Positions 1-51,653 of a stretch of 64,000 nt of DNA are shown here, piece after piece. Source of the DNA: Phycisphaerae bacterium (GTDB lineage Bacteria > Planctomycetota > Phycisphaerae > Sedimentisphaerales > Anaerobacaceae); contig JAQTLP010000002.1 in NCBI GenBank assembly GCA_028714855.1, positions 186,001 through 250,000 on the forward strand, read 5' to 3'. The notes beneath the pieces are model-generated. The model worked only from the letters and a program-made list of their open reading frames with translations, had not been told where the DNA came from and searched no databases. Made by a program: the position numbers and the translations under genes. The stretch's first letter is position 1, and every line of letters begins with the position of its first letter.

Positions 1-995
1 AATTTAAGCAGAGCACCTTCGAGCTCCCTGACGTTGGTCCTGAGATTTTCGGCGACATATTCTATTACGCTCTCAGGGACATGTTTTCGCATAGTTACGG
101 TATATTGTTTGCAGATTTGACATCGCGTCTGGAAATCCGGCGTTTCAACTTTTACAACCATCCCTGAGACGAAACGGCTGATAAGTTTTTCGGAGAGCTG
201 GCCTATCATTTTGGGATGCGCGTCAGAAGCGAGGATGACCTGTTTTCCCGCCAAATCGATTGTATTAAAGGTATGCAGGAATTCTTCCTGCGTTGAAGGC
301 TTGCTGGCCAAGAAGTGAATGTCGTCGATAGCCAACAAATCCGTTTGTCGCATTCGGCTCCTAAAAGCTTCCAGTCTTTTTGTCTTCAAGGCCAGCACAA
401 ACTGATTGGCAAAGTCTTCCGCTGATAGATACAGCCAATTAGTTTGGGGGCGTTCTATGCCCACCGCATTGCAAATCCCTTGCAGCAGGTGAGTTTTGCC
501 GACCCCGTATCCTCCGTGAATAAACAGCGGATTAAAAGGACTTTGCTGTTCTCTTATGACCGCCTTTACGGCGTTGTAAGCCAGCTCGTTCGACGAGCCG
601 ACAACAAAAGTATCCAGTGTTAATTTCAGCCGGGACCCTGAAAACGATTGTCTTCCCGTCCTCTTGCTGCGGGTTCGATTCTGAGTTTTCCCTACCAGTT
701 GCGCCTGCGAATCGAGCTGCGTTCGTCTCTGGTGGCCGGAAAGCTCCGGGTCGATGGTAAAGGAAATCTCGCGTTCGGACCCGGTAACCGCCCGAACGGC
801 CTGGCTGATTTCGTTTGAAAAATGATTTTCAATCCAGCTTGCTATGAAAAGGTTCGGGACGCCTATTTTTAAATACCTGTCGGTCAGGGTTAATTTTGTC
901 GAATTCTTAAACCAGATGCTAAACTTCTGCGGCCCTACCTTCTCGGCAAGGGCCTCACTAACGGCACCGGTCTCATCCATGATTGTGCTTTGCAT
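1..995 (-). CDS. dnaA: Chromosomal replication initiator DnaA (3' end cut by window)
   Basis: Replication initiator that binds DnaA boxes, opens the origin and helps load the helicase. Translating the complement from the ATG at 995 gives an N-terminal domain I/II of about 115 residues, then the AAA+ core: Walker A GGYGVGKTHLL near residue 158 and Walker B LLAIDDIHFL near residue 220. The window ends at NVRELEGALLK, so the DNA-binding domain IV is missing here only because of the boundary. The start is supported by GAGGAG five bases upstream. A second in-frame ATG (MDETG) lies a few codons later but has no comparable ribosome site. It is transcribed leftward, 240 bp downstream of rsmB, and the gap carries DnaA-box-like sites, which suggests autoregulation. 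dnaN and gyrB are about 50 kb away rather than adjacent. Confidence 0.96.
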   Translation of the reverse strand, partial: MQSTIMDETGAVSEALAEKVGPQKFSIWFKNSTKLTLTDRYLKIGVPNLFIASWIENHFSNEISQAVRAVTGSEREISFTIDPELSGHQRRTQLDSQAQLVGKTQNRTRSKRTGRQSFSGSRLKLTLDTFVVGSSNELAYNAVKAVIREQQSPFNPLFIHGGYGVGKTHLLQGICNAVGIERPQTNWLYLSAEDFANQFVLALKTKRLEAFRSRMRQTDLLAIDDIHFLASKPSTQEEFLHTFNTIDLAGKQVILASDAHPKMIGQLSEKLISRFVSGMVVKVETPDFQTRCQICKQYTVTMRKHVPESVIEYVAENLRTNVRELEGALLK

Positions 996-1057
996 AATAC
1001 TCTCCTCATTAAGAGCGTCTTGCTCTTTGGAAGCTGTAACCAAACATCCAACAGCAG

Positions 1058-1087
1058 TTATTATTGGCCGGTGGCAAAACAAATCAA
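1058..1087 (-). promoter_or_regulatory. Candidate dnaA promoter
   Basis: On the minus strand TTGATT and TAATAA are separated by 18 bases, about 60 bases before the dnaA start codon. Similarity to the sigma-70 consensus is moderate and the call is inference only. Confidence 0.35.
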
Positions 1088-22468: not shown

Positions 22469-23959
22469 TTAATACCGCCTGCTCGCGGTTTTGCCGGTAC
22501 GCCTGTAATTGACGAAGAAATACCGCAGTGCGTCTATCGGGTGGTCGTATAGGCCGTCCTTGAGCGGAAGCTCGCCCGCCCTGCCGCCCTCAGGGTAGCG
22601 ATAACACTCCATCGCCTCTATCAGCCGTTGGCACCTCGGCGAGATTAACAGCCTCTTTTTGCCGTCACCGGCCTTCAGGCTGCGGCGGATAAGCTCTATC
22701 CCCTCGAGGATTCCGCTTCGCCGAAATCGCGTAATTACCCCCAGCATCCGCAGCTCCCGAACTATACTTGTTCCCGTAACATCGTTTCTGTTCCCGCCCG
22801 AAGGGTCGCAGAACGTCGCCGCTACGCTTCTTTCCCCGGCTGGCGTTCGTCTTTTTATTTCCTCGGCGTGAACGTCTATTGTCGCCCTGCTGCGAACGTA
22901 CTCGTCTATCACACGCACAACGCCGTCCGTATCGACCTGGACCCACAGGCACACGAATGGATTCACAAACCCGAAATCAAGAGCCCTGTACAATGGCAGA
23001 TTAGGGTCGTAATCGACTCCCCGGATATGCTCGGCCGGCTCGAACTCGTCGAAGACCACATTCTCCCTGCTTGGTCTCTTGCAGAGCATTTCCGCCTCCC
23101 ACCCCGCCCTGCTCGCTCGCCGCATCGCGGTTATACAATCGTCAACCTTCAGATAACCTTCGCTCTCCCTGGCCTTGCCCTCGCAGTCAACCCATAGCGG
23201 GCACTGCGAGCAGTTCCTCTCGGTGCATCTTTCTATCACCTCCCACAAGCACCATTTAAAAACCGGCGTAGCAAGCTGCCCCGCCGTGGAAACTATTTTC
23301 TGCATCAGCCCGTAAGGCCGGTGCATCGTGCTTATCATCTCCATCGCCGCCAGCAGCCCTGCTGTGCTTTGAGTGGTAAGCTTCGCCGCCGCGAAGACCT
23401 CCTCGTCGAAAAGCTCCACCTCATCACAGCGAAGTTTCTGAATATGCTGCCCGCGGACACTTCTTTGCGATTGAGTAAGTACCTCGACTGCCGAGCCGTT
23501 GATAAACCTGCATTTGCTCTTTCTGATAGGCCCTGCTAAAAATTCCTCGTAACCTCTCCGCAGAAAACCGGTCAAATATTCGTACATCCTCCCCGCCTGC
23601 TCGCCCGACCCGCTCAGAATCCGCACCTGGCACCCCGGCTTAAAAACGCAGTCCAGCAAAGTGGCAATCGCCGCCAATTCCGTTTTCCCGCCCCCGCGGT
23701 TCGCCCATACTATCGCGTCCCCGTTCGTGGGTCTTTCCGTCGCAAAATCGTAAAAATAGCTGTGCCATAGATACTCCATTGGGCTATTATGTCCCTTGCA
23801 GACTCTTTTATCGGGGATATCAACGCCTAAATAGACCTTAATGTAGTTTTTGATGTCCCTTCGTGTCACCGGCGCTGCCCGCCGCAAACTCGAATAGACC
23901 TCTGCTGCCTTCTCTATTACCTGAAAATTCGTTGAATTGACTAACGTCGGTTCTGCCAT
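22469..23959 (-). CDS. Phage-type terminase large subunit (ATPase plus nuclease), apparently intact
   Basis: DNA-packaging motor family protein of 496 residues. The ATPase half has Walker A RGGGKTE (88-94), Walker B with D179-E180 in KLRCDEVELFDE, and a coupling-type motif ISTMHRP (209-215). The RNase H-like nuclease half has three acidic positions in the expected order: D328 in RALDFGFVNPF, D385 in TFCDPSGG, and D472/D476 in DHPIDALRYF. Between the halves is a four-Cys cluster (C245, C250, C253, C259) that could bind a metal. The start has AAGGAG about eight bases upstream. It is the last gene of a leftward cassette whose other members are TerS-like, ParB-like, GNAT, DUF488 and ABC ATPase proteins. 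No portal, capsid or tail gene is near. Confidence 0.87.
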   Translation of the reverse strand: MAEPTLVNSTNFQVIEKAAEVYSSLRRAAPVTRRDIKNYIKVYLGVDIPDKRVCKGHNSPMEYLWHSYFYDFATERPTNGDAIVWANRGGGKTELAAIATLLDCVFKPGCQVRILSGSGEQAGRMYEYLTGFLRRGYEEFLAGPIRKSKCRFINGSAVEVLTQSQRSVRGQHIQKLRCDEVELFDEEVFAAAKLTTQSTAGLLAAMEMISTMHRPYGLMQKIVSTAGQLATPVFKWCLWEVIERCTERNCSQCPLWVDCEGKARESEGYLKVDDCITAMRRASRAGWEAEMLCKRPSRENVVFDEFEPAEHIRGVDYDPNLPLYRALDFGFVNPFVCLWVQVDTDGVVRVIDEYVRSRATIDVHAEEIKRRTPAGERSVAATFCDPSGGNRNDVTGTSIVRELRMLGVITRFRRSGILEGIELIRRSLKAGDGKKRLLISPRCQRLIEAMECYRYPEGGRAGELPLKDGLYDHPIDALRYFFVNYRRTGKTASRRY

Positions 23960-24141
23960 TACTATTACTCCTTAAAGGACTTATGATAGCGATGATGGGT
24001 GCGAAAAAAATATCAACTTTATTTGCATATTTTTTTGCCTCTCTCGATAAATGGAGTATATTCTAAATAGAGAGCTTTCAAAAATGAATCTGGCTTCGAG
24101 AGGTTGGTGTAGATGTTAAATATAAAATTTAGTTATCGTAT

Positions 24142-24197
24142 AAGGGAGACAGACCAGACAAAATATAAATAAAAAAATCGGCCTGTGTCTCCCTTTT
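24142..24197 (+). ncRNA. Candidate small RNA or terminator: hairpin between the two terminase genes
   Basis: AAGGGAGACA and TGTCTCCCTT form a ten-pair stem, extended by GACC/GGCC-type pairing, around an A-rich loop and followed by TTTTT. The 35 bases upstream (TTGGTGTAGA then TTAAATATA) match those upstream of the hairpin at 22311. It lies in the 285-bp gap between the TerS-like and terminase genes, on the strand opposite to them. The remainder of that gap shows only an AT-rich stretch and a CTCTC/GAGAG inverted repeat near 24040-24073. Confidence 0.42.
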
Positions 24198-24244
24198 TGC
24201 GCAGATTTTTTATAAACCAACTTTCGCCTGTCACTTCAAACATT

Positions 24245-24682
24245 TTATAGGCCTCCTGCAGATTTCCCTTCCGCCAATACCGCCAAAATTCTGCTGGCTG
24301 TCTCCAGGGATAAGACCGTATTCGGCTGCTGCTTCTCGACGCTGCATTCTCGTCCATCTTCCATCTTCTTTCGTCCGTCGTTTTCCTGACTGATAATATC
24401 CAAACACGCCTTCCGCGCCGTCTCCGCCTTCTCAGATGCGGTCAGCTCCACCAATTTCGCCGCCGCAAGACAGCGGTACTTGGCCATTAAAAGCTCGCTT
24501 CGCCGTCTCATGTTATCTGCATACCGGCCGAACCGTTCCGCAAAAACCTCGTTTGCCAGCCACCTTTCATATACCTCCCGGCCGACCCCGTGCTTCTCCA
24601 GAACCCTCTGCTCATCAAGGTCGCTGTTAAACAAATCGTCTAATACCGCTAACTGCTTCCGCCTCAACTGCCCTTTTGCCAT
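24245..24682 (-). CDS. Terminase small-subunit-like helix-turn-helix protein
   Basis: The protein has 145 residues. The N-terminal part (about 5-50) reads like a helix-turn-helix of the type found in phage terminase small subunits (LRRKQLAVLDDLFNSDLDEQRVLEKHGVGREVYERWLANEVFAERF), followed by a helical segment with many Arg and Glu that ends in ETARKACLDIIS, also a feature of that group. AGGAGGGG sits just before the ATG at 24682. It lies directly upstream of the terminase gene in transcription order and 13 bases after the ParB-like gene. The role as DNA-recognition partner of the terminase is inferred from family resemblance and position. Confidence 0.65.
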   Translation of the reverse strand: MAKGQLRRKQLAVLDDLFNSDLDEQRVLEKHGVGREVYERWLANEVFAERFGRYADNMRRRSELLMAKYRCLAAAKLVELTASEKAETARKACLDIISQENDGRKKMEDGRECSVEKQQPNTVLSLETASRILAVLAEGKSAGGL

Positions 24683-24695
24683 AACCCCTCCTGAT

Positions 24696-25313
24696 TTATC
24701 TGCCCGCGATGGAAAGAAACTCCCCCGCTATTTGCGCCAGTGCCGCCGACCTCTTTGCTGCCCTTGTTTTTTCATTCTCTGTTCTTTCAGCTAACGATAG
24801 CGCACTCTCTATCGTCCTCTGCTGTGCGTCATTTACAAAAAATATCATCGGATTCGAAAAGCCCTTGGCCTCCGCCGGCCTGCTCGGCATCTTCAAATCT
24901 GTAAGCCGCTCAATCTGCTTCGCCGTTTGCGGCACCAGTCTTGCAAGCTCCCTCGACTCCATCCTTTTATTCAGCCGCTTCAGCAGTTCCAGCTTCCTGC
25001 CCAGCTCGTCCGTCCCGCATAGACGGTTGAGAGTGGCAAGCAGTATGTCCGCCTGCTCGTCGTCGATGTCCCACACTACGCAGTCTGCCGTTTTATACCC
25101 AAGCTTCGTTAACGCCTGGCAGCGGTGATGACCGTTGATTATCTGGAAATGCTTTCCCCTCAGCGGGTGCGGCCTCACCACTATCGGCTCATATCTGCCC
25201 GTCTTCTCTATATTGCGCACCAATTTCCGAAATGTCGCCTCGCTCATCTTGTTCGGATTATCCGGATGCGCAACAAGTTTATCTATCGCTATCGACTGAA
25301 CTGAATTTGTCAT
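24696..25313 (-). CDS. ParB N-terminal domain protein
   Basis: The protein has 205 residues. Residues 1-100 form a ParB/Srx-type domain: IDKLVAHPDNPNKMSE, then GRYEPIVVRPHP, then the box INGHHRCQALTKLGY, which in ParB proteins binds nucleotide. The rest (LNRLCGTDELGRKLELLKRLNKR onward) is helical and basic. It lacks the central DNA-binding and C-terminal dimer domains of chromosomal ParB, and no cognate parA is adjacent; the ParA at 35 kb is separate. Such free-standing ParB domains are frequent next to phage terminases. The ATG overlaps the stop of the acetyltransferase gene by four bases. Confidence 0.8.
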   Translation of the reverse strand: MTNSVQSIAIDKLVAHPDNPNKMSEATFRKLVRNIEKTGRYEPIVVRPHPLRGKHFQIINGHHRCQALTKLGYKTADCVVWDIDDEQADILLATLNRLCGTDELGRKLELLKRLNKRMESRELARLVPQTAKQIERLTDLKMPSRPAEAKGFSNPMIFFVNDAQQRTIESALSLAERTENEKTRAAKRSAALAQIAGEFLSIAGR

Positions 25314-26038
25314 ACCTTAAATCCTGCCTTCTCATTAAACCAAATATAATACACCGGCCGTACCGTCAGCTTGCTCAGCACAAACCTCATTCGCTCCAGA
25401 CCGGCCCCTTCGTATCGCCTTTCGCCGTAGCTTTGCAGAAAACGCCTGATCTCAAACTCGATAAATTCACCCTCCAGTTGCCCTAATTGCCCGATCCTCC
25501 CCTGCACCATTTCTGCATCGACAAGTTCCTCGCCTTCAACCCCGACCGCACCGAGCGCCTCGATAAGCCGAACGCATCGCACCGGCATATTCGCCGTATA
25601 AGAGTTCATCCCCGCCTTCTCGAAAAAGGGATTCACCGTCCCCATAACCGCCATCGCCTCGATTACCGGCACACCCATCTCCGGCATAGTCTCACGCACC
25701 AGTCGGCTCGCCAGTCCCAGCCCCCTAAACCTCGGCTCGATTATCACCCTGCTTATACAGCGTATGTTCTTATTGATAAGCGCCATCCGTGTCCGGCTGT
25801 CGAACCCGGCAAACAAATCTCCCGTCGCGACATTCCGCAGCTCCGCCCCCATACTCGGCATCGTATAAACTATTACCCCAACAGGCTCCTTGCTCATACC
25901 TCCGTCCCGCTTAATAACAAATATCGCCGTATACGCCCCCGGCCGGCTATCTCTGTAATGAAACCTCGCCAGCTTCTTATAATCCTCGAAACCCCCGCGA
26001 ACTATCCGAAGGTTTTTAGTTACGCTGCATCCCCGCAT
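25310..26038 (-). CDS. GNAT-type acetyltransferase of the ABC-GNAT (COG2401-like) kind
   Basis: The protein has 242 residues. The acetyl-CoA-binding core reads ISRVIIEPRFRGLGLASRLVRETMP, matching motif A (R/Q-x-x-G-x-G/A), with ARFHYRDSRPGAY and GVIVYTMP in the N-terminal half and a NPFFEKAGM motif B-like segment. The open frame continues 51 codons upstream, but that part is a palindromic repeat translated in frame (DCHAFKGARND, then WIPHQVRND). The ATG at 26038, with GGAAGGG five bases upstream, is therefore the likely start. The resemblance to the acetyltransferase part of archaeal ABC-GNAT proteins is recalled from family knowledge, not tested. It is translationally coupled to the ParB-like gene. 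Confidence 0.72.
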   Translation of the reverse strand: MRGCSVTKNLRIVRGGFEDYKKLARFHYRDSRPGAYTAIFVIKRDGGMSKEPVGVIVYTMPSMGAELRNVATGDLFAGFDSRTRMALINKNIRCISRVIIEPRFRGLGLASRLVRETMPEMGVPVIEAMAVMGTVNPFFEKAGMNSYTANMPVRCVRLIEALGAVGVEGEELVDAEMVQGRIGQLGQLEGEFIEFEIRRFLQSYGERRYEGAGLERMRFVLSKLTVRPVYYIWFNEKAGFKV

Positions 26039-26054
26039 CTTTACCCTTCCATTG

Positions 26055-26120
26055 TCATTCCGCACTTGATGCGGAATCCATTTCCTGTCATTGCGAGCCC
26101 CCTTAAAGGCGTGGCAATCT
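26055..26120. repeat. Two palindromic intergenic repeats
   Basis: CATTCCGCACTTGATGCGGAATC (26057-26079, given as overlapping arms CATTCCGCA and TGCGGAATC) and an ATTGC...GCAAT element (about 26089-26118) lie in tandem between the DUF488 and acetyltransferase genes. They belong to the kind of dispersed palindrome also seen at 36602, 59296 and, inside mfd, at 59989. Confidence 0.6.
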
Positions 26121-26169
26121 ACCCTCAAATCGCAAATGGAAACACCGCCCACATTATGCTGCTCGAATA

Positions 26170-26760
26170 TTATTTCTTCGCTCGACGGCACATTTTCTCA
26201 GCCTGCTGGTCGTATGCTTTCTCAACTGTTTCCGTGGATTCGAAAAGAGCTGGTTCTATTTTGAGCATCCCGACTAATCTGCGTTCAGCCTCGCTATGTT
26301 CCTCGATGCTGCCGTCGGCAAGAATGTGCTTTATTTGAACGTTGTGCTTTTTCAGGTTCCTCGATACGAGAATGCTCCTGTGGCATTGTAACGGGTCTTT
26401 CTCTGCACACATAAGCGCAATGCGATGCTTTGGAATATCCGCAAGCAAATGTTCAATCCCTCGTTTGAATTCCTCTCTTTCGGCTACGCGCCTGAAATCA
26501 ACACAGCTATATTCATAACAGGCGGGGTCGTCTGGCCGGCCGCCTAATTCCTTGCCCATAAACATATACGTAATGCCCGCTGCCGCAAGTGCCGCCGCGA
26601 GAGTGTCTTTATTAAACTGCGGACAATACCTGCTGTAAGGCGCCGAGCGAACGTCCGCGATACAGGTAACTCCATGCCGCTTTAATAGACTTATGAAATC
26701 TTCTATCTCGTGGTTTGAATGTCCTATCGTATACAAAATGCTATCTTTTGACTCAACCAT
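26170..26760 (-). CDS. DUF488 family protein
   Basis: The protein has 196 residues. DUF488 features are the opening LYTIGHSNHEIEDFISLLKRHGV, IADVRSAPYSRYCPQFN, and the Cys/His segment ALMCAEKDPLQCHRSILVS. DUF488 proteins have no firmly established reaction, although the conserved Cys-rich loop suggests catalysis or metal binding. No Shine-Dalgarno sequence is visible before the ATG. It sits between the acetyltransferase and the ABC ATPase genes, which in some genomes form one fused protein, so this gene interrupts or accompanies that pair. DUF488 genes are mobile and often associate with defence or stress loci, but that link here is inference. Confidence 0.85.
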   Translation of the reverse strand: MVESKDSILYTIGHSNHEIEDFISLLKRHGVTCIADVRSAPYSRYCPQFNKDTLAAALAAAGITYMFMGKELGGRPDDPACYEYSCVDFRRVAEREEFKRGIEHLLADIPKHRIALMCAEKDPLQCHRSILVSRNLKKHNVQIKHILADGSIEEHSEAERRLVGMLKIEPALFESTETVEKAYDQQAEKMCRRAKK

Positions 26761-26800
26761 ACTGTTTACAATAACTAAAACTCGTTAAATAAGAAATACG

Positions 26801-27436
26801 CTACTTATAAACAACTCGCGTCGCCCCCGACAATTCCTTGACCACTAATACATCAGGTGCCAAATCCAGCAGTATATCATCATGGCTCGATGCTAATATA
26901 AACGTTACCCCCTTCTGTTTTGCGTATTTGCGGATATTGTATGAAATCACCGCTGCGGTAATCCTGTCCAGCTCATTGCAGAATTCGTCCGCGAAAATAT
27001 ATTTCGCCCCCGATGATAGCGCAACTGCCAGCCGAAACCGGTACTTCTGCCCGTCGCTCAAATTCACCGGCCGATTCAAAACGCAGAACGCGTCGCCCAA
27101 TCCCGCAACACTCAGTGTTTTCAGCCCCGTTACAAAATCACCATCTATGCAGTCTATCACCGACTTGTCCTCGGCGAGTTCTATTCTATTAAGGTTCACC
27201 CTCTCCGAATCCGGAATCGCTTTCTCTATTTCCCTTAGCAGCACGCTTTTCCCCGCCCCCGATGGCCCTGTAATATATACGATGTCCCCATCATTGATTT
27301 CCAGTTGGCAGCTAACGGCAAAGCTTTCCTGTGCGAGCCTGTCCGCCGTCAGCCCGAACATCCTCATCACCGATGCGTCCCTTTCGCTTATTTGCCCCGC
27401 CCGTCCGAAACTCTTTGAAATGTCATACCTCGCCAT
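26801..27436 (-). CDS. ABC-type ATPase (soluble; COG2401-like)
   Basis: An ATP-binding cassette with no membrane segments. Walker A is GPSGAGKSVLL, the signature is LSDGQKYRFRLAVAL, Walker B is KYIFADEFCNELD, and the H-loop region is ILASSHDDI. The start at 27436 (MARYDIS, 211 residues) has AAAGGA six bases upstream. The frame continues to a GTG at 27508, which would add 24 residues. The short cassette without a transporter partner, together with the GNAT gene downstream, resembles the two halves of ABC-GNAT proteins. It is the first gene of the leftward cassette ending in the terminase. The N-terminal segment SKSFGRAGQISERDASVMRMFGL is not part of the core ABC fold. Confidence 0.8.
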   Translation of the reverse strand: MARYDISKSFGRAGQISERDASVMRMFGLTADRLAQESFAVSCQLEINDGDIVYITGPSGAGKSVLLREIEKAIPDSERVNLNRIELAEDKSVIDCIDGDFVTGLKTLSVAGLGDAFCVLNRPVNLSDGQKYRFRLAVALSSGAKYIFADEFCNELDRITAAVISYNIRKYAKQKGVTFILASSHDDILLDLAPDVLVVKELSGATRVVYK

Positions 27437-27761
27437 AATTTCCTTTAATTCAAAATACCCCCCCCATATATTGCCCGAATCTGCGCAGTTGATGCGAACT
27501 ATGTTCACCTTTTCTAAGGTCTTTTCCCCCTAAGTGCTTATGTGGAAATGAATAAAAAATTTGTTAAATTTTTATATTTTTACCGTCCAGTACCTGCGCA
27601 TTTGATTGAAATCCCTCTATGTTTTACTTTTAATCCACTATCCCTACTTAATAGCCGTACCTAAGCTATCTTTAAGATTGGCCTCAAGGGCATGCAAAAT
27701 TTCCCTAAGTGAGCGGATGATAAATAAGCTACAAATCAGGAACATTTCAATGAACAATAAA

Positions 27762-28592
27762 CTAAATCTGTACAGGAACAAAAAAACCAAAAATGTTGTA
27801 TTTGTTAGTAAAAAACTCGGCATCAAACTTATATGGTTTTATTGAGATTTCTTTGTGTATACTATCTGTGATACCGATATTCGATGTCGACAGTTGAGCG
27901 ACAACATCGGGAGGAGCCTTCCCTCGTACTTGTGTAAAATATTGGGTCTTAAAAGGCGGTGATGCAATACAGTAACGAACTTGCCAATTTTGTTCAATGT
28001 CAGGATCAATGCGACTTCTACCGGCTTCTTTTTCGAACACAACTAACATGCAATGTTTAAAGTTCTTTTCTACCAAACGACGAGCTATTGCTTCAAATGA
28101 TACTTTATATTTTTCGCCTAATTGCTTTACCGTTTCGGCAGAAATTTTCTGGCTGTTTGATTCAAGGGTAAAGTTGTTTCCCATAAGCAACAAATCAATG
28201 GCAAATTCGTTTGCTTCTTTTTCTAATATGAGCTGAGTTGAAAAACTAAGCCCTTTATTGTCGCACAAATATAGTGAATGTTGATGGTTGGGAAGCACAT
28301 AATGTGCAATTTCATGACACACACTAAATCGCATTCGCTTTTCGCTAAGCTCGTTGTCACTAGCAATCAGCCTGTCATGAAATGATAGCATTGCCCGCGG
28401 TTTTTCTCCTGTAAGAGTTAGTTGTGAAGAGAATATACTGTTAAAATCTAAAACCATAAGATTTAGTTTCAATAAATCTATAATTTTAGCAGGATTGAGG
28501 GCTTCGCGGCTTTCTTGGCCGCTCTCTATCAGTAGATACCGAACCAATTCACGTGGTTCAATTTCCAAATAGTTTGCCTTGAAATTGTTCAT
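27762..28592 (-). CDS. ImmA/IrrE-family metallopeptidase
   Basis: The protein has 276 residues. The zinc-protease motif is H93-E-x-x-H97 in VCHEIAHYVLP, with a downstream Glu-rich segment ILEKEANEFAIDLLLM supplying the third ligand, as in ImmA/IrrE peptidases that cleave HTH repressors. The C-terminal 120 residues are not recognisable. The start overlaps the stop of the Zn-finger/HTH antitoxin gene by four bases, so the two products are made together. The HTH protein is the obvious candidate substrate. It is the third gene of the module that starts at 29516. Base composition is more AT-rich than the core genes. Confidence 0.83.
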   Translation of the reverse strand: MNNFKANYLEIEPRELVRYLLIESGQESREALNPAKIIDLLKLNLMVLDFNSIFSSQLTLTGEKPRAMLSFHDRLIASDNELSEKRMRFSVCHEIAHYVLPNHQHSLYLCDNKGLSFSTQLILEKEANEFAIDLLLMGNNFTLESNSQKISAETVKQLGEKYKVSFEAIARRLVEKNFKHCMLVVFEKEAGRSRIDPDIEQNWQVRYCIASPPFKTQYFTQVRGKAPPDVVAQLSTSNIGITDSIHKEISIKPYKFDAEFFTNKYNIFGFFVPVQI

Positions 28593-29167
28593 TTGTGTTT
28601 CTTATGTTGCAAGCTGGTGATTTTCTTTAAACACCTACTTAAGGCATCACAGAGGGAGGGGTCTAATTCGCTGCCGTGCCAAGCAAAGGCAACGCGGTTT
28701 CCAGCCTTGAAAGTCTCAAGACATTTAAAGTATTTTGATATTTCTTCCATTCGGTTTGGTTTACGTTGTGCCTCAAATTGATTTAAAAGCTCGGCTCTTT
28801 GTTCAAATAACCGAATAAGATTATCACTCGATTTGCTCTGTATCGATTTACCGGATTCCCATCTTGTATACGTCTTGTCACCTACTCCCAATTGCTGTGC
28901 CATTGCAACTTGGGACAAACCGGCAGCCTTCCGTATTTCTTGAATTCTTTTAGAAGTTAGCAAGCCTAAACGATGATAGCGTTCTTGTTCGAGCGCATGT
29001 TCAAGTGCGACAGGAATAATCCTTTCCCCACAAGTAGAACATTCTTCCCACTTACTATTGGGGATAATAATTACTCCGCCTTGTATATTGGGTGGCGGTT
29101 CAAACCTAAACTTACCACTGCACGTCTTAAGAGATAAATTCCCGCAGATAGGACATTTTTTAGCCAT
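28589..29167 (-). CDS. MqsA-like antitoxin: zinc ribbon plus XRE helix-turn-helix
   Basis: The protein has 192 residues. Two CxxC pairs (C5/C8 in KCPICG and C43/C46 in ECSTCGERI) form an MqsA-type zinc-binding domain. A helix-turn-helix follows at about 73-130 (IRKAAGLSQVAMAQQLGVGDKTYTRWESGK), which should bind the promoter. The C-terminal 60 residues (FKCLETFKAGNRVAFAWHGSELDP) are beyond the usual MqsA length. AAAGGGA precedes the ATG. It lies 13 bases after the MqsR-like gene and overlaps the ImmA/IrrE-type gene by four bases. By family it should neutralise the upstream toxin and repress the operon. Confidence 0.82.
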   Translation of the reverse strand: MAKKCPICGNLSLKTCSGKFRFEPPPNIQGGVIIIPNSKWEECSTCGERIIPVALEHALEQERYHRLGLLTSKRIQEIRKAAGLSQVAMAQQLGVGDKTYTRWESGKSIQSKSSDNLIRLFEQRAELLNQFEAQRKPNRMEEISKYFKCLETFKAGNRVAFAWHGSELDPSLCDALSRCLKKITSLQHKKHK

Positions 29168-29180
29168 ATATCAGTCCCTT

Positions 29181-29516
29181 TTAATGATGCTTATGTGCAG
29201 AAATAATCAGCAAATTTTCGTTACCTGCGTTACTTTTTTGAATTGCAACTTTTATATAAAACCCTACTCCCAGTAAGTCCGGCTTCACAACATAAGCAGG
29301 CTCGCCAATATGGCCGTCGGCGTATTTTGTGACAATTACCTGCACTCGTTTGGCCTCATCAATCCAATCGCAGATTGCGTCACAAATGTCAGACTTAGTT
29401 AACCCTGAACCCATTAAGTCGTAAAGCGATGATTGGGTAGTTTTAACCTTTTCAGGGTTACTTGCAAGCTGGTGAATAATTCTTATAACATCCAGGCTTG
29501 CTTCATTTTCTTTCAT
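29181..29516 (-). CDS. MqsR-like toxin (RelE-superfamily RNase), probable
   Basis: The protein has 111 residues. The pattern VKTTQSSLYDLMGSGLTKSDICDAICDWI parallels MqsR's segment around VRTTRSALLNA and the MCNVIIGL helix, and the end FYIKVAIQKSNAGNENLLIISAHKH parallels MqsR's VYLKITV...VLIVSFK. MqsR cleaves mRNA at GCU/GCN. Similarity is by eye and moderate. Position supports it: the gene is directly upstream of an MqsA-like antitoxin, as in the toxin-first mqsRA order. The start codon lies only about five bases from the predicted transcription start, so the message appears nearly leaderless. Confidence 0.65.
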   Translation of the reverse strand: MKENEASLDVIRIIHQLASNPEKVKTTQSSLYDLMGSGLTKSDICDAICDWIDEAKRVQVIVTKYADGHIGEPAYVVKPDLLGVGFYIKVAIQKSNAGNENLLIISAHKHH

Positions 29517-29756: not shown

Positions 29757-30197
29757 TTACCGTGCGCTGATCGCCGTCTTTGCCTTTGGAAAGGCGATAA
29801 CCGTCTGTATTTTCTTCAGAGTCTTGCGGACGCCGTAGTATGTCCAGTTGCGCTTTGCCGCAATCTTTTTTATCGATAGCCCTGTCAGAAAATAATCTTT
29901 CGCGATATCCATTTCGCCCTGGTTGAATTTGTCCCTGCTCCGCAGGCACATTATATATTCGCCGTTTATAAGCCGTTTTGTAACCCTGTGTATTCTTCTC
30001 GCGATGCTCGCCTCGCTGACGCCGACCAGCCTCGCCATCTGCCGAAAGCTGTTGCCGTTCTCCATATACATTGTCATCAGCACCTTGTCCTTGCCCTTAA
30101 GCAGGCCCACCCTGCTCCGAAGCAAATCTATCCTGTCGCGACGCTCCATCCTGACCTCAGAGTTGCTCTCGGAAACATTTTCGTGGACTTTTTTCAT
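29757..30197 (-). CDS. Helix-turn-helix regulator resembling sigma-70 region 4
   Basis: A 146-residue basic protein with two HTH-like segments: KDKVLMTMYMENGNSFRQMARLVGVSEASIARRIHRV (about 43-79) and a second at about 104-128 (YFLTGLSIKKIAAKRNWTYYGVRKTLKKI). The first resembles region 4 or resolvase-type DNA binding. No region 2 of a sigma factor is present, so it is probably a small transcription regulator rather than a complete sigma factor. The ATG at 30197 has GGAAGGG seven bases upstream. The frame runs seven codons further to a TTG with no ribosome site. Its target is unknown. It is a single-gene unit with its own promoter. Confidence 0.6.
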   Translation of the reverse strand: MKKVHENVSESNSEVRMERRDRIDLLRSRVGLLKGKDKVLMTMYMENGNSFRQMARLVGVSEASIARRIHRVTKRLINGEYIMCLRSRDKFNQGEMDIAKDYFLTGLSIKKIAAKRNWTYYGVRKTLKKIQTVIAFPKAKTAISAR

Positions 30198-30329
30198 AAT
30201 GAACCCTTCCCTGGCCAATCACCCCACACCTCGGGTTGACTTTGGGCTAATTTCCACCTCGGCTAAACCTCTCCGTCTTTTTGTCCTTAAAGATGCACAT
30301 ATTTTAACTATTTACTTAACAATAAGGGT

Positions 30330-47691: not shown

Positions 47692-50175
<2,484 letters not shown>

Positions 50176-50180
50176 TCACG

Positions 50181-50543
50181 TTAAATCGCGGCGGCTCGGC
50201 CGACAACAACTTTAATTTCTTGTATCCGCGCCTGCGGATATTGCCTGCCCAGCTCTTCGAGAAGCTCACTGCTTAATAATTGCAGCTCGTACACATACGA
50301 CGGCGAGTCAGCAAGCACTTTTAGCTTGTGGCCGGAAATGCCGTCGATTCTACAGTGCCGACAAAGCTCGATCGGCAGCAACTGACTCCAAGCCTCGGCT
50401 ATCAATTCGGCTCTGCTTTGCTGCGGCGAAATCCGCTTTTCCATAAGCTCACTTAGGACATCACCCAAACCGACCGCTCTTTCTGCTCGATGTACCGTTC
50501 GCCACTTGACGGCTCTGCGCAATTGTTCGTCTTCGTCCACCAT
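50181..50543 (-). CDS. dciA: DciA-type (DUF721) helicase-loader protein
   Basis: The protein has 120 residues. DUF721 features are visible: an N-terminal helical part, then AELIAEAWSQLLPIELCRHCRIDGISGHKLKVLADSPSYVYELQLLSSELLEELGRQYP. DUF721 proteins include DciA, which interacts with DnaA and DnaB and replaces DnaC/DnaI loaders in most bacteria. Location between dnaN and gyrB, where recF normally sits, fits a replication role and is common in phyla that keep DUF721 here. It starts three bases after dnaN ends. Function is inferred from family and context. Confidence 0.82.
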   Translation of the reverse strand: MVDEDEQLRRAVKWRTVHRAERAVGLGDVLSELMEKRISPQQSRAELIAEAWSQLLPIELCRHCRIDGISGHKLKVLADSPSYVYELQLLSSELLEELGRQYPQARIQEIKVVVGRAAAI

Positions 50544-50546
50544 TTT

Positions 50547-51653
50547 TCAACTCAGGTTAATCGGCATTAGAACATAGAGGAAATTTGCCCCGCTCTTTAT
50601 CAAGCCCGGCCTGTCCGCCTGACCCAACTCTAACTCGAACTCCGCCGTCTTAATGACCCGCAGGGCCTCTATTAAAAACTGCGGATTAAACCCAATCTCA
50701 ATCGGCTCGCCCTTATAATCGATGGGCATATTAATCTGCGCATCACCCGCCTCCGGCGCCCTTCCGGAAAACATCAGACTGTTCTTTCCTATCGAAAGTT
50801 TAATCCCTCTGGACTCCCCGCTTGTCAGCAGCGCCGAACGGCGCACCGCGCTTAACACCGCCTCGGTTGACAGCACCAGTTTCTTGTCGTAATCCTCCGG
50901 TATTATATCCTCATATTTGGGGAAATTACCTTCGACAAGATTCGAGCTTATAACTACATTCGCACAACTGAACAATATCTGGTTGTCGACAAGCTTGACC
51001 ATAACAATATCCTTTTCACTGCCGCCGATTTTATCCAGCAAAGTCATCGTCTTGGCCGGAACTATTACTTTTACTTTAGCAATCTGTTCAGCCGGCGCTG
51101 AAGCCAGGCTGGCTCTGCAGCGGGCCAATCTTCTGCCGTCGGTGGCGACAAGAGACAGCTTCTTGCCTTTAATTTCCCACAGCACTCCGTTAAGAGCATA
51201 GCGAGTGCTCTCTTTGGCTGTAGCAAACAAACACTGCCTTATGCCGGCCTGCAGGCACCCTAAAGAAATCTCTATATCAGCTTTCGCCTCAAAGCTTGGA
51301 ACTGCAGGATATTGGCCCGGCTCTTGGCCATAAATTGTAAAGTGGCTGTCCGCTCCCTCTATCTTGCAAGTGCCGTCCTCAGCCCGTAACACCAAAACAT
51401 CATCCGTGCTCTCGCGCACAACAGCCGCTAACCGGTCTGCCGGGACAACAATTTCACCTGCTTCTTCCACTTGAACTTCAGAAACTAAATAGTTAATACC
51501 AACCTCTATGTCGGTTGCACAGATGTGAACATTCTTTTTGTCGGCGACAATTTGGACACAGTGGAGTATTGGTTTTGGTGTGCGGCTTGGCACAACGGTG
51601 GTTAGTATGCCTAAAGCATCTGCCAAGGCGGCTCTGTTAAAATTTAATCTCAT
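50547..51653 (-). CDS. dnaN: DNA polymerase III beta (sliding clamp)
   Basis: Ring-shaped processivity clamp of the replicative polymerase. The 368-residue length is standard for the three-domain clamp. The N-terminus MRLNFNRAALADALGILTTVVPSRTPKPIL and the segments CKIEGADSHFTIYGQEPGQYP, GVLWEIKGKKLSLVATDGRRLA, and the C-terminal INMPIDYKGEPIEIGFNPQFLIEALRVI with LMPINLS are characteristic. It heads the leftward dnaN-dciA-gyrB operon. The upstream 560-bp gap holds the origin candidate. Confidence 0.96.
   Translation of the reverse strand: MRLNFNRAALADALGILTTVVPSRTPKPILHCVQIVADKKNVHICATDIEVGINYLVSEVQVEEAGEIVVPADRLAAVVRESTDDVLVLRAEDGTCKIEGADSHFTIYGQEPGQYPAVPSFEAKADIEISLGCLQAGIRQCLFATAKESTRYALNGVLWEIKGKKLSLVATDGRRLARCRASLASAPAEQIAKVKVIVPAKTMTLLDKIGGSEKDIVMVKLVDNQILFSCANVVISSNLVEGNFPKYEDIIPEDYDKKLVLSTEAVLSAVRRSALLTSGESRGIKLSIGKNSLMFSGRAPEAGDAQINMPIDYKGEPIEIGFNPQFLIEALRVIKTAEFELELGQADRPGLIKSGANFLYVLMPINLS

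Follow-up and report, generated by a model that had tools for sequence, protein, structure and literature searches.

What does a terminase do on a bacterial chromosome when no virion genes lie beside it? The question is raised by a locus in a 64,000-nucleotide stretch of a Phycisphaerae genome (the window), which the initial annotation described as a leftward cassette of six genes without any virion genes. Four roles were proposed there: a domesticated packaging module, a satellite borrowing capsids, a component of a gene transfer agent whose capsid cluster lies elsewhere, or a defence system. All six ORFs are present and intact at the places given, except that the ABC gene starts at 27508 rather than at an internal ATG near 27436. 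The operon extends further right than the ABC gene, to an overlooked gene, SIG, and DUF488 is not a core member. The genes of the locus are as follows:

22469..23959, minus strand: TerL, terminase large subunit (phrog_2, 1.5e-23)
24245..24682, minus strand: TerS-like, terminase small subunit-like (phrog_2538, 1.7e-4, a weak match)
24696..25313, minus strand: ParB/Srx N-domain protein, phrog_723 (ParB_N, 2e-10)
25310..26191, minus strand: GNAT acyltransferase, phage phrog_886 type (weak in Pfam, fold confirmed)
26170..26760, minus strand: DUF488 protein, a non-core insertion between ABC and GNAT (DUF488, 1.5e-26)
26801..27508, minus strand: ABC ATPase, phage phrog_293 type (ABC_tran, 9e-12)
27762..29516, minus strand: insertion between SIG and ABC, comprising an M78 (IrrE-like) peptidase, an MqsA-family antitoxin and a 111-aa ORF
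29757..30218, minus strand: SIG, a sigma-70-region-4-like protein with a second HTH (Sigma70_r4_2, 2.2e-6)

The core operon order, SIG–ABC–GNAT–(ParB–TerS)–TerL, is conserved throughout the class Phycisphaerae. Almost every complete copy of the operon has SIG upstream of ABC, and the two are directly adjacent in a same-genus genome (L032) whose locus does not carry the M78/MqsA/111-aa insertion; SIG is likely a regulator of the packaging operon. The M78/MqsA block and DUF488 are local insertions outside the core, the latter being lineage-specific and found between ABC and GNAT in only a few relatives. The TerS-like gene keeps its place ahead of TerL across copies, while ParB is absent from several lineages and is thus not essential to the core. 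A scan covering part of the integrase and replication families found the surroundings in the window to consist of host-like genes, the toxin-antitoxin block and DUF488, and the flanks are housekeeping genes, with aspS and, further out, dnaA, gyrB and dnaN.

TerL combines ATPase and RNase H-like nuclease domains, with the large terminase of phage D6E as its best PDB fold and a cluster of cysteines (C245/C250/C253/C259/C293) between the two domains. Every catalytic residue is intact, including K92, D179/E180, D328, D385 and D472/D476, as the initial annotation held in arguing that the gene is not eroded. These residues are invariant in 69-70 of 70 orthologs covering them and in 97-99 of the 99 sequences of a broader set, where the remainder are gaps in truncated rows, and the dN/dS of TerL (0.05-0.21) indicates purifying selection. 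The protein is divergent enough that the Pfam profile PF03354 (TerL_ATPase) misses it in its own genome, so that absence by Pfam means little. Viral contigs with a close TerL are almost lacking, with three at about 41 % identity, and a scan of IMG/VR with a TerL profile gave mainly hits to the nuclease domain or hits of 22-24 % identity.

The ABC protein displays a Walker A motif (GPSGAGKS), an LSDGQ signature and a DE Walker B, and is 41 % identical to an ABC protein that Pseudomonas phages encode upstream of their terminase. Its GNAT partner has the invariant residues H78, R119, N140, R148, R156 and E178, probably starts near residue 52, and has a fold supported by AlphaFold and VIA-align (best Z 12.5-12.6). 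The pair fits the phrog_293/phrog_886 type, as expected of a COG2401-type ABC-GNAT. A fused ABC-GNAT persists in families f9 and f19, both without TerL and without capsid, indicating that the pair can serve another role.

We found TerL in 128 of 161 genomes of the order (59 of the 66 of high quality) and in 153 of 298 genomes of the class, usually as a single copy; matches elsewhere in the phylum were few and weak. In the TerL tree most families group together. Where TerL stands isolated, SIG-ABC-GNAT, in some genomes together with ParB-TerS, lies 15-45 kb off in most cases examined. Near-universal single-copy retention, the family-wise phylogeny and purifying selection support calling the cassette domesticated, as one of the proposed roles had it. 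Sulfatase genes that clustered with TerL are a product of single-linkage clustering.

An HMM scan of all window ORFs detected no portal, capsid or tail genes of this lineage, in agreement with the description of a cassette without virion genes. The statement does not extend to the genome: the distant portal and capsid cluster that the initial annotation suggested looking for lies on another contig (C1:145,139-150,311), where we identified genes for a portal (PF05133, 3.7e-17; its ortholog in L339, 3.7e-19), a scaffold (PF06810, 6.6e-8) and a major capsid protein (PF17236, 2.2e-86), the head families being an SPP1-type portal and an SU10-type major capsid. Three other families had at first suggested, wrongly, that cognate virion genes are lacking. 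The PF04860 portal is present in 14 of 159 genomes of the order and absent from the window's own genome, the phrog_145 portal in only 11 of 298 genomes, and the HK97 capsid PF05065 in 21 of 98 with a distribution that does not follow TerL. The genome does carry a separate HK97-type capsid element on contig C6, which we rejected as the TerL partner because its distribution does not track TerL. Two relatives have large genes placed like those for the Mu transposase and MuB.

The SU10-type capsid is present in 130 of the 298 class genomes and co-occurs with TerL (both 122, TerL only 31, capsid only 8, neither 137; Fisher p=8e-43, with genomes counted as independent despite their kinship). Counted by family, the same four classes number 17, 4, 0 and 6 (p=7e-4). 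Thirteen of the 31 TerL-only genomes were judged to have a prophage-type TerL; incompleteness is only a partial explanation for TerL-positive, capsid-negative genomes such as G063, G001 and G026. Portal and TerL have also diverged together (Pearson r=0.95 between their identities, Mantel p<0.0005). Purifying selection of the kind seen for TerL also acts on portal, scaffold, capsid and adaptor, with dN/dS of 0.05-0.2 for portal and capsid. Packaging and head loci are unlinked in most genomes and partly broken up by insertions. In certain lineages they are contiguous. These include L185, with SIG-ABC-GNAT-TerL-portal-scaffold-MCP-adaptor followed by tail-like genes, and L105, with portal-scaffold-MCP-TerL. 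Tail-like genes lie beside head genes in families f2, f7, f15 and f22 and in a close relative, L350, where the tail gene families c7 and c8 adjoin the capsid; other lineages retain c7 and c8 too, but neither turned up in the window's own genome. The lysis families scanned in the window yielded no lysis gene.

Taken together, the cassette is probably the DNA-packaging locus of a viriform resembling gene transfer agents, one that an ancestor of the Phycisphaerae acquired from a tailed phage and that has been passed on vertically since, and the data suggest a gene transfer agent of a kind not described before. Phage-derived packaging and virion genes (TerL/TerS, portal, scaffold, capsid) reside in a cellular genome and, throughout a large clade, are inherited vertically and kept by purifying selection, and of the roles proposed initially a gene-transfer-agent part apart from its capsid cluster fits the cognate head locus, which co-occurs and co-diverges with TerL class-wide. 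SIG would probably turn the packaging operon on, and TerS and ParB would recruit DNA, presumably from the host. TerL, driven by ATP, would pump the DNA stepwise through the SPP1-type portal, encoded at the unlinked head locus, and into a particle assembled from the SU10-type major capsid and the scaffold encoded there as well; the nuclease of TerL would then cut the DNA, which the particle would transfer to other cells. The packaged DNA may be marked or protected by ABC-GNAT, a candidate DNA-modification pair carried by phages.

Alternatively, the packaging and head genes could have been domesticated for a role in the host that is unrelated to gene transfer, for instance packaging DNA into tail-less particles, storing or disposing of DNA, or acting as a modification-dependent nuclease system of ABC-GNAT and TerL. 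The lack of both tested tail families from the window's own genome, the retention of ABC-GNAT without TerL in some families and the dispersal of packaging and head loci broken up by insertions are consistent with such a role; we nevertheless regard it as unlikely, given the TerL-like selection on portal, scaffold, capsid and adaptor and the tail-like genes kept beside head genes in four families, which fit a particle tailed now or in the past. Also unlikely in our judgement is an ancient class-wide packaging machine, tail-less in many species, in which marking by ABC-GNAT is coupled to terminase and capsid for a non-classical purpose, for example the release, storage or disposal of marked DNA. 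A restriction-like defence system was considered and ranked low. PADLOC returned no match for TerL, TerS, GNAT or SIG, its matches being generic-looking ones to ABC and the ParB-domain protein and others to the inserted DUF488 and M78 genes, so that the defence option, whose core genes match no described system there, is not supported.

A remnant or part of ordinary prophages gained many times is very unlikely, even though true prophages of the class carry a related ABC-GNAT-ParB-TerS-TerL-portal module (L183) and Rhizobium and Pseudomonas phages share a similar gene order. Such neighbours were named initially as the finding that would overturn the reading of the cassette; of about 105 homologous loci, only 4 (L183 and L202-L204) belong to prophages in which a phrog_145 portal gene lies next to them, and their TerL proteins form a separate clade. 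In an active prophage the packaging genes would stand beside virion, integration and lysis genes; the window holds no portal, capsid or tail gene of this lineage. Near-universal single-copy presence, the family-wise tree, the housekeeping flanks, the scarcity of close viral TerL sequences and residue 472, D in the domesticated set vs E in most prophage types, likewise argue against repeated gain. Packaging genes without a capsid in the window, and the HK97-type element on C6, might recall a phage satellite borrowing helper capsids. However, neither an integrase nor satellite genes were noticed next to the cassette, which is nearly fixed across the class, vertically inherited and accompanied by its own co-inherited SU10-type capsid locus, while the HK97 capsid does not follow TerL; we consider a satellite extremely improbable.

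Only a small number of lineages are established as carrying gene transfer agents, the Alphaproteobacteria being the best case, and RcGTA-type agents are known to have their genes spread over several loci. If the gene-transfer-agent reading is correct, a Phycisphaerae system of comparable depth is probably an independent domestication, and such systems can persist with genes tens to hundreds of kilobases apart. Scattered loci would hide others from prophage-finding tools, as these look for contiguous clusters, and the predicted ABC-GNAT DNA-modification pair would gain a testable setting beside a packaging motor. A literature search, conducted without preprints and most subscription journals, turned up no publication describing a gene transfer agent in Planctomycetota.

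The closest packaging modules compared are those of Nickievirus, Rhizobium RHph and SSU5-type phages, with ABC proteins 36-42 % and GNAT proteins 24-30 % identical. Nickie and RHph share with the Phycisphaerae the order ParB-ABC-GNAT-TerS-like-TerL-portal-capsid, although the RHph TerL is only about 24 % identical to that of the window, both phage TerLs are without its cysteine cluster, and nickie has a phrog_145 portal and phrog_212 capsid unlike the Phycisphaerae head genes. All three are complete phages, whereas the Phycisphaerae module is chromosomal and vertically inherited. The ABC-ATPase and GNAT system predicted by the Aravind group (COG2401 / MK0520) involves a pair of the same two protein types, at times joined in one protein, as they are in some Phycisphaerae families, and its acylation of DNA bases is a prediction only (PMC7824862); the Phycisphaerae pair, of likewise predicted chemistry, differs in being tied to a terminase operon across the class. 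GNAT resembles phage Mu Mom in fold (8bv8, Z 12.5), a score tied with many protein and small-molecule acetyltransferases, so that fold cannot separate out Mom homology. RcGTA-type agents of Alphaproteobacteria similarly have terminase, portal and capsid genes of phage origin that are passed on vertically (PMC7947584, PMC9662315). Unlike them, the candidate Phycisphaerae system combines an SPP1-type portal and an SU10-type capsid with a TerL of another kind, carries ABC-GNAT and ParB, and keeps its packaging and head loci mostly unlinked.

All six ORFs of the cassette reported in the initial annotation were present on the minus strand at their expected positions, and family scans gave the identities below; the SIG gene was added as an operon member by locus comparison.

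TerL, 22469-23959, minus strand, large terminase (phrog_2, 1.5e-23)
TerS, minus strand, weak match to phrog_2538 (1.7e-4)
ParB, minus strand, ParB_N (2e-10)
GNAT, minus strand, phage-type acetyltransferase (phrog_886)
DUF488, minus strand (1.5e-26)
ABC ATPase, minus strand, phage type (phrog_293, 6.8e-30)
SIG, 29757-30218, small sigma-70-region-4-like HTH protein

The AlphaFold model of TerL (pLDDT 86) found its best match in the large terminase of phage D6E, and all catalytic residues were invariant at the positions covered by the ortholog alignment. Five cysteines (C245, C250, C253, C259 and C293, residues 245-293) lie between the ATPase and nuclease domains and are almost invariant in Phycisphaerae TerLs but absent from those of the phages nickie and RHph, possibly forming a metal site. 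At its 5′ end (window 26030-26130) the GNAT ORF includes what resembles a dispersed-repeat peptide (...HQVRNDN...), so its true start is probably internal. Bordering the cassette are aspS at one end and a sensor kinase at the other, with dnaA, gyrB and dnaN farther out, all named from translations rather than by family scan; the last three (window 1-1082 and 47692-51653) fall within about 30 kb of the cassette, and TerL adjoins or is near dnaA in some relatives of family f2 (L075-L077, L108, L110). No portal, capsid or tail genes of this lineage were found in the 64 kb window.

Comparison with about 105 homologous loci defined a conserved operon, SIG–ABC–GNAT–(ParB–TerS)–TerL, in which several families lack ParB and TerS and some have ABC and GNAT fused into one protein. 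DUF488, lying between ABC and GNAT, is an insert specific to the lineage. SIG directly abuts ABC in the same-genus locus L032, which lacks the MqsA-family antitoxin, 111-aa ORF and M78 peptidase gene inserted between them in the window (27762-29516). In most of the cases examined, families with a solitary TerL carry SIG–ABC–GNAT, some also with ParB–TerS, at a distance of 15-45 kb; the operon has therefore been split up and its genes retained. TerL is itself two genes in the IMG/VR contigs L071 and L072, with the nuclease half upstream of the ATPase half and ParB-like and HTH genes adjoining. One in-frame TAG breaks TerL in genome G158 (L090, G158:C17:26922-28376), and the adaptor gene of that genome's head locus, L339, is likewise in two ORFs.

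TerL, mostly single-copy, was found in 153 of 298 genomes of the class and 128 of 161 of the order (59 of 66 among high-quality ones), with just a few weak matches elsewhere in the phylum. In the TerL tree, families f10, f22, f20, f13, f16 (domesticated copies), f6 and f7 mostly cluster; f2 is divided, and f1 has a stray copy (the second TerL of genome G032) and one deep row. Pairwise dN/dS was 0.05-0.21 by a rough counting method. The cassette is an inherited chromosomal system.

An SPP1-type portal model gave one match each in 18 of 20 TerL-bearing genomes, including that of the window, where it falls in a head locus on another contig.

Head locus, contig C1:145,139-150,311, portal–scaffold–major capsid–adaptor-like–small membrane protein–lipoprotein

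Pfam supports the portal family (PF05133, 3.7e-19, in the ortholog L339), scaffold (PF06810, 6.6e-8) and SU10-type major capsid (PF17236, 2.2e-86), PHROGs also support portal and capsid, and dN/dS of portal, capsid and adaptor was 0.06-0.23. Matches to the common portal family, to the phrog_145 portal and to the HK97 capsid were sporadic and did not track TerL, and the HK97 capsid was rejected as its partner.

The SU10-type capsid occurs in 130 of the 298 class genomes, 122 with both TerL and capsid, 31 with TerL only, 8 with capsid only and 137 with neither (Fisher p=8e-43, uncorrected for descent). Thirteen of the 31 TerL-only genomes were assigned a prophage-type TerL, by weaker scores or a phrog_145 portal. 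Among families, tallied by hand, the corresponding counts were 17, 4, 0 and 6 (p=7e-4). Portal and TerL pairwise identities correlate strongly (r=0.95, Mantel p<0.0005), as would those of any two vertically inherited genes, whether or not their functions are related; it is the pattern of co-loss and the contiguity of the loci that argue for a link beyond shared descent. Locus L185 (f15) is a single run of SIG–ABC–GNAT–TerL–portal–scaffold–capsid–adaptor–tail-like genes, and L105 has contiguous portal–scaffold–capsid–TerL. Where the two loci share a contig, they lie a median of 32 kb apart.

In f2 and f7, and partly in f15 and f22, the capsid is followed by tail-like genes (clusters c14, c9, c8, c12 and c7). 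The same genes follow a capsid 85% identical to that of the window's genome in L350, an IMG/VR contig listed as viral (IMGVR_UViG_3300031673_016560), which may be chromosomal and wrongly classed; its head and tail-like cluster lies beside an apparent type I methylase gene. A genome-wide search for families c7 and c8 found no match in the window's genome, and no lysis gene was identified.

Acylation of DNA bases is the predicted activity of the ABC–GNAT pair (PMC7824862), and no test of this was found in the literature searched. Because f9 and f19 (e.g. L234-L237, L242) retain a fused ABC–GNAT of about 480-540 aa without TerL or capsid, the pair may have a function of its own.

L183 (G165, f12) is a genuine prophage whose packaging module mirrors the window cassette, ABC–GNAT–ParB–TerS–TerL being followed by a phrog_145 portal, scaffold and phrog_1357 capsid. 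In L202-L204, too, TerL adjoins a portal, and those portals that were scanned are of phrog_145 type; the prophage-type TerLs of L183 and L202-L204 form their own separate clade and mostly have E instead of D at position 472. The window's genome holds a second phage-derived element (G000:C6, about 147,700-155,300; L223:16531 to L224:4177) with XRE repressor, prohead protease, HK97 capsid, tape-measure-like and Gam-like genes, in which no portal or terminase was recognised. Similar gene orders occur in L225, L226, L227, L228, L229 and L233, the last two also with large genes that, judged by position rather than by scanning, would correspond to Mu transposase and MuB.

Rhizobium phage RHph_N1_10 and Pseudomonas phage nickie share the order ParB–ABC–GNAT–TerS-like–TerL–portal–capsid, and SSU5 has the ParB–ABC–GNAT part; the packaging module therefore derives from tailed phages. 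This cassette makes up the packaging half of a phage-derived system, ancient and dispersed, that is closest in kind to a gene transfer agent. Of the four options initially offered, a gene-transfer-agent part encoded away from its capsid cluster has the best support. Genes, descent and selection back this membership; we infer the defining behaviour of such agents, particles carrying host DNA from cell to cell.
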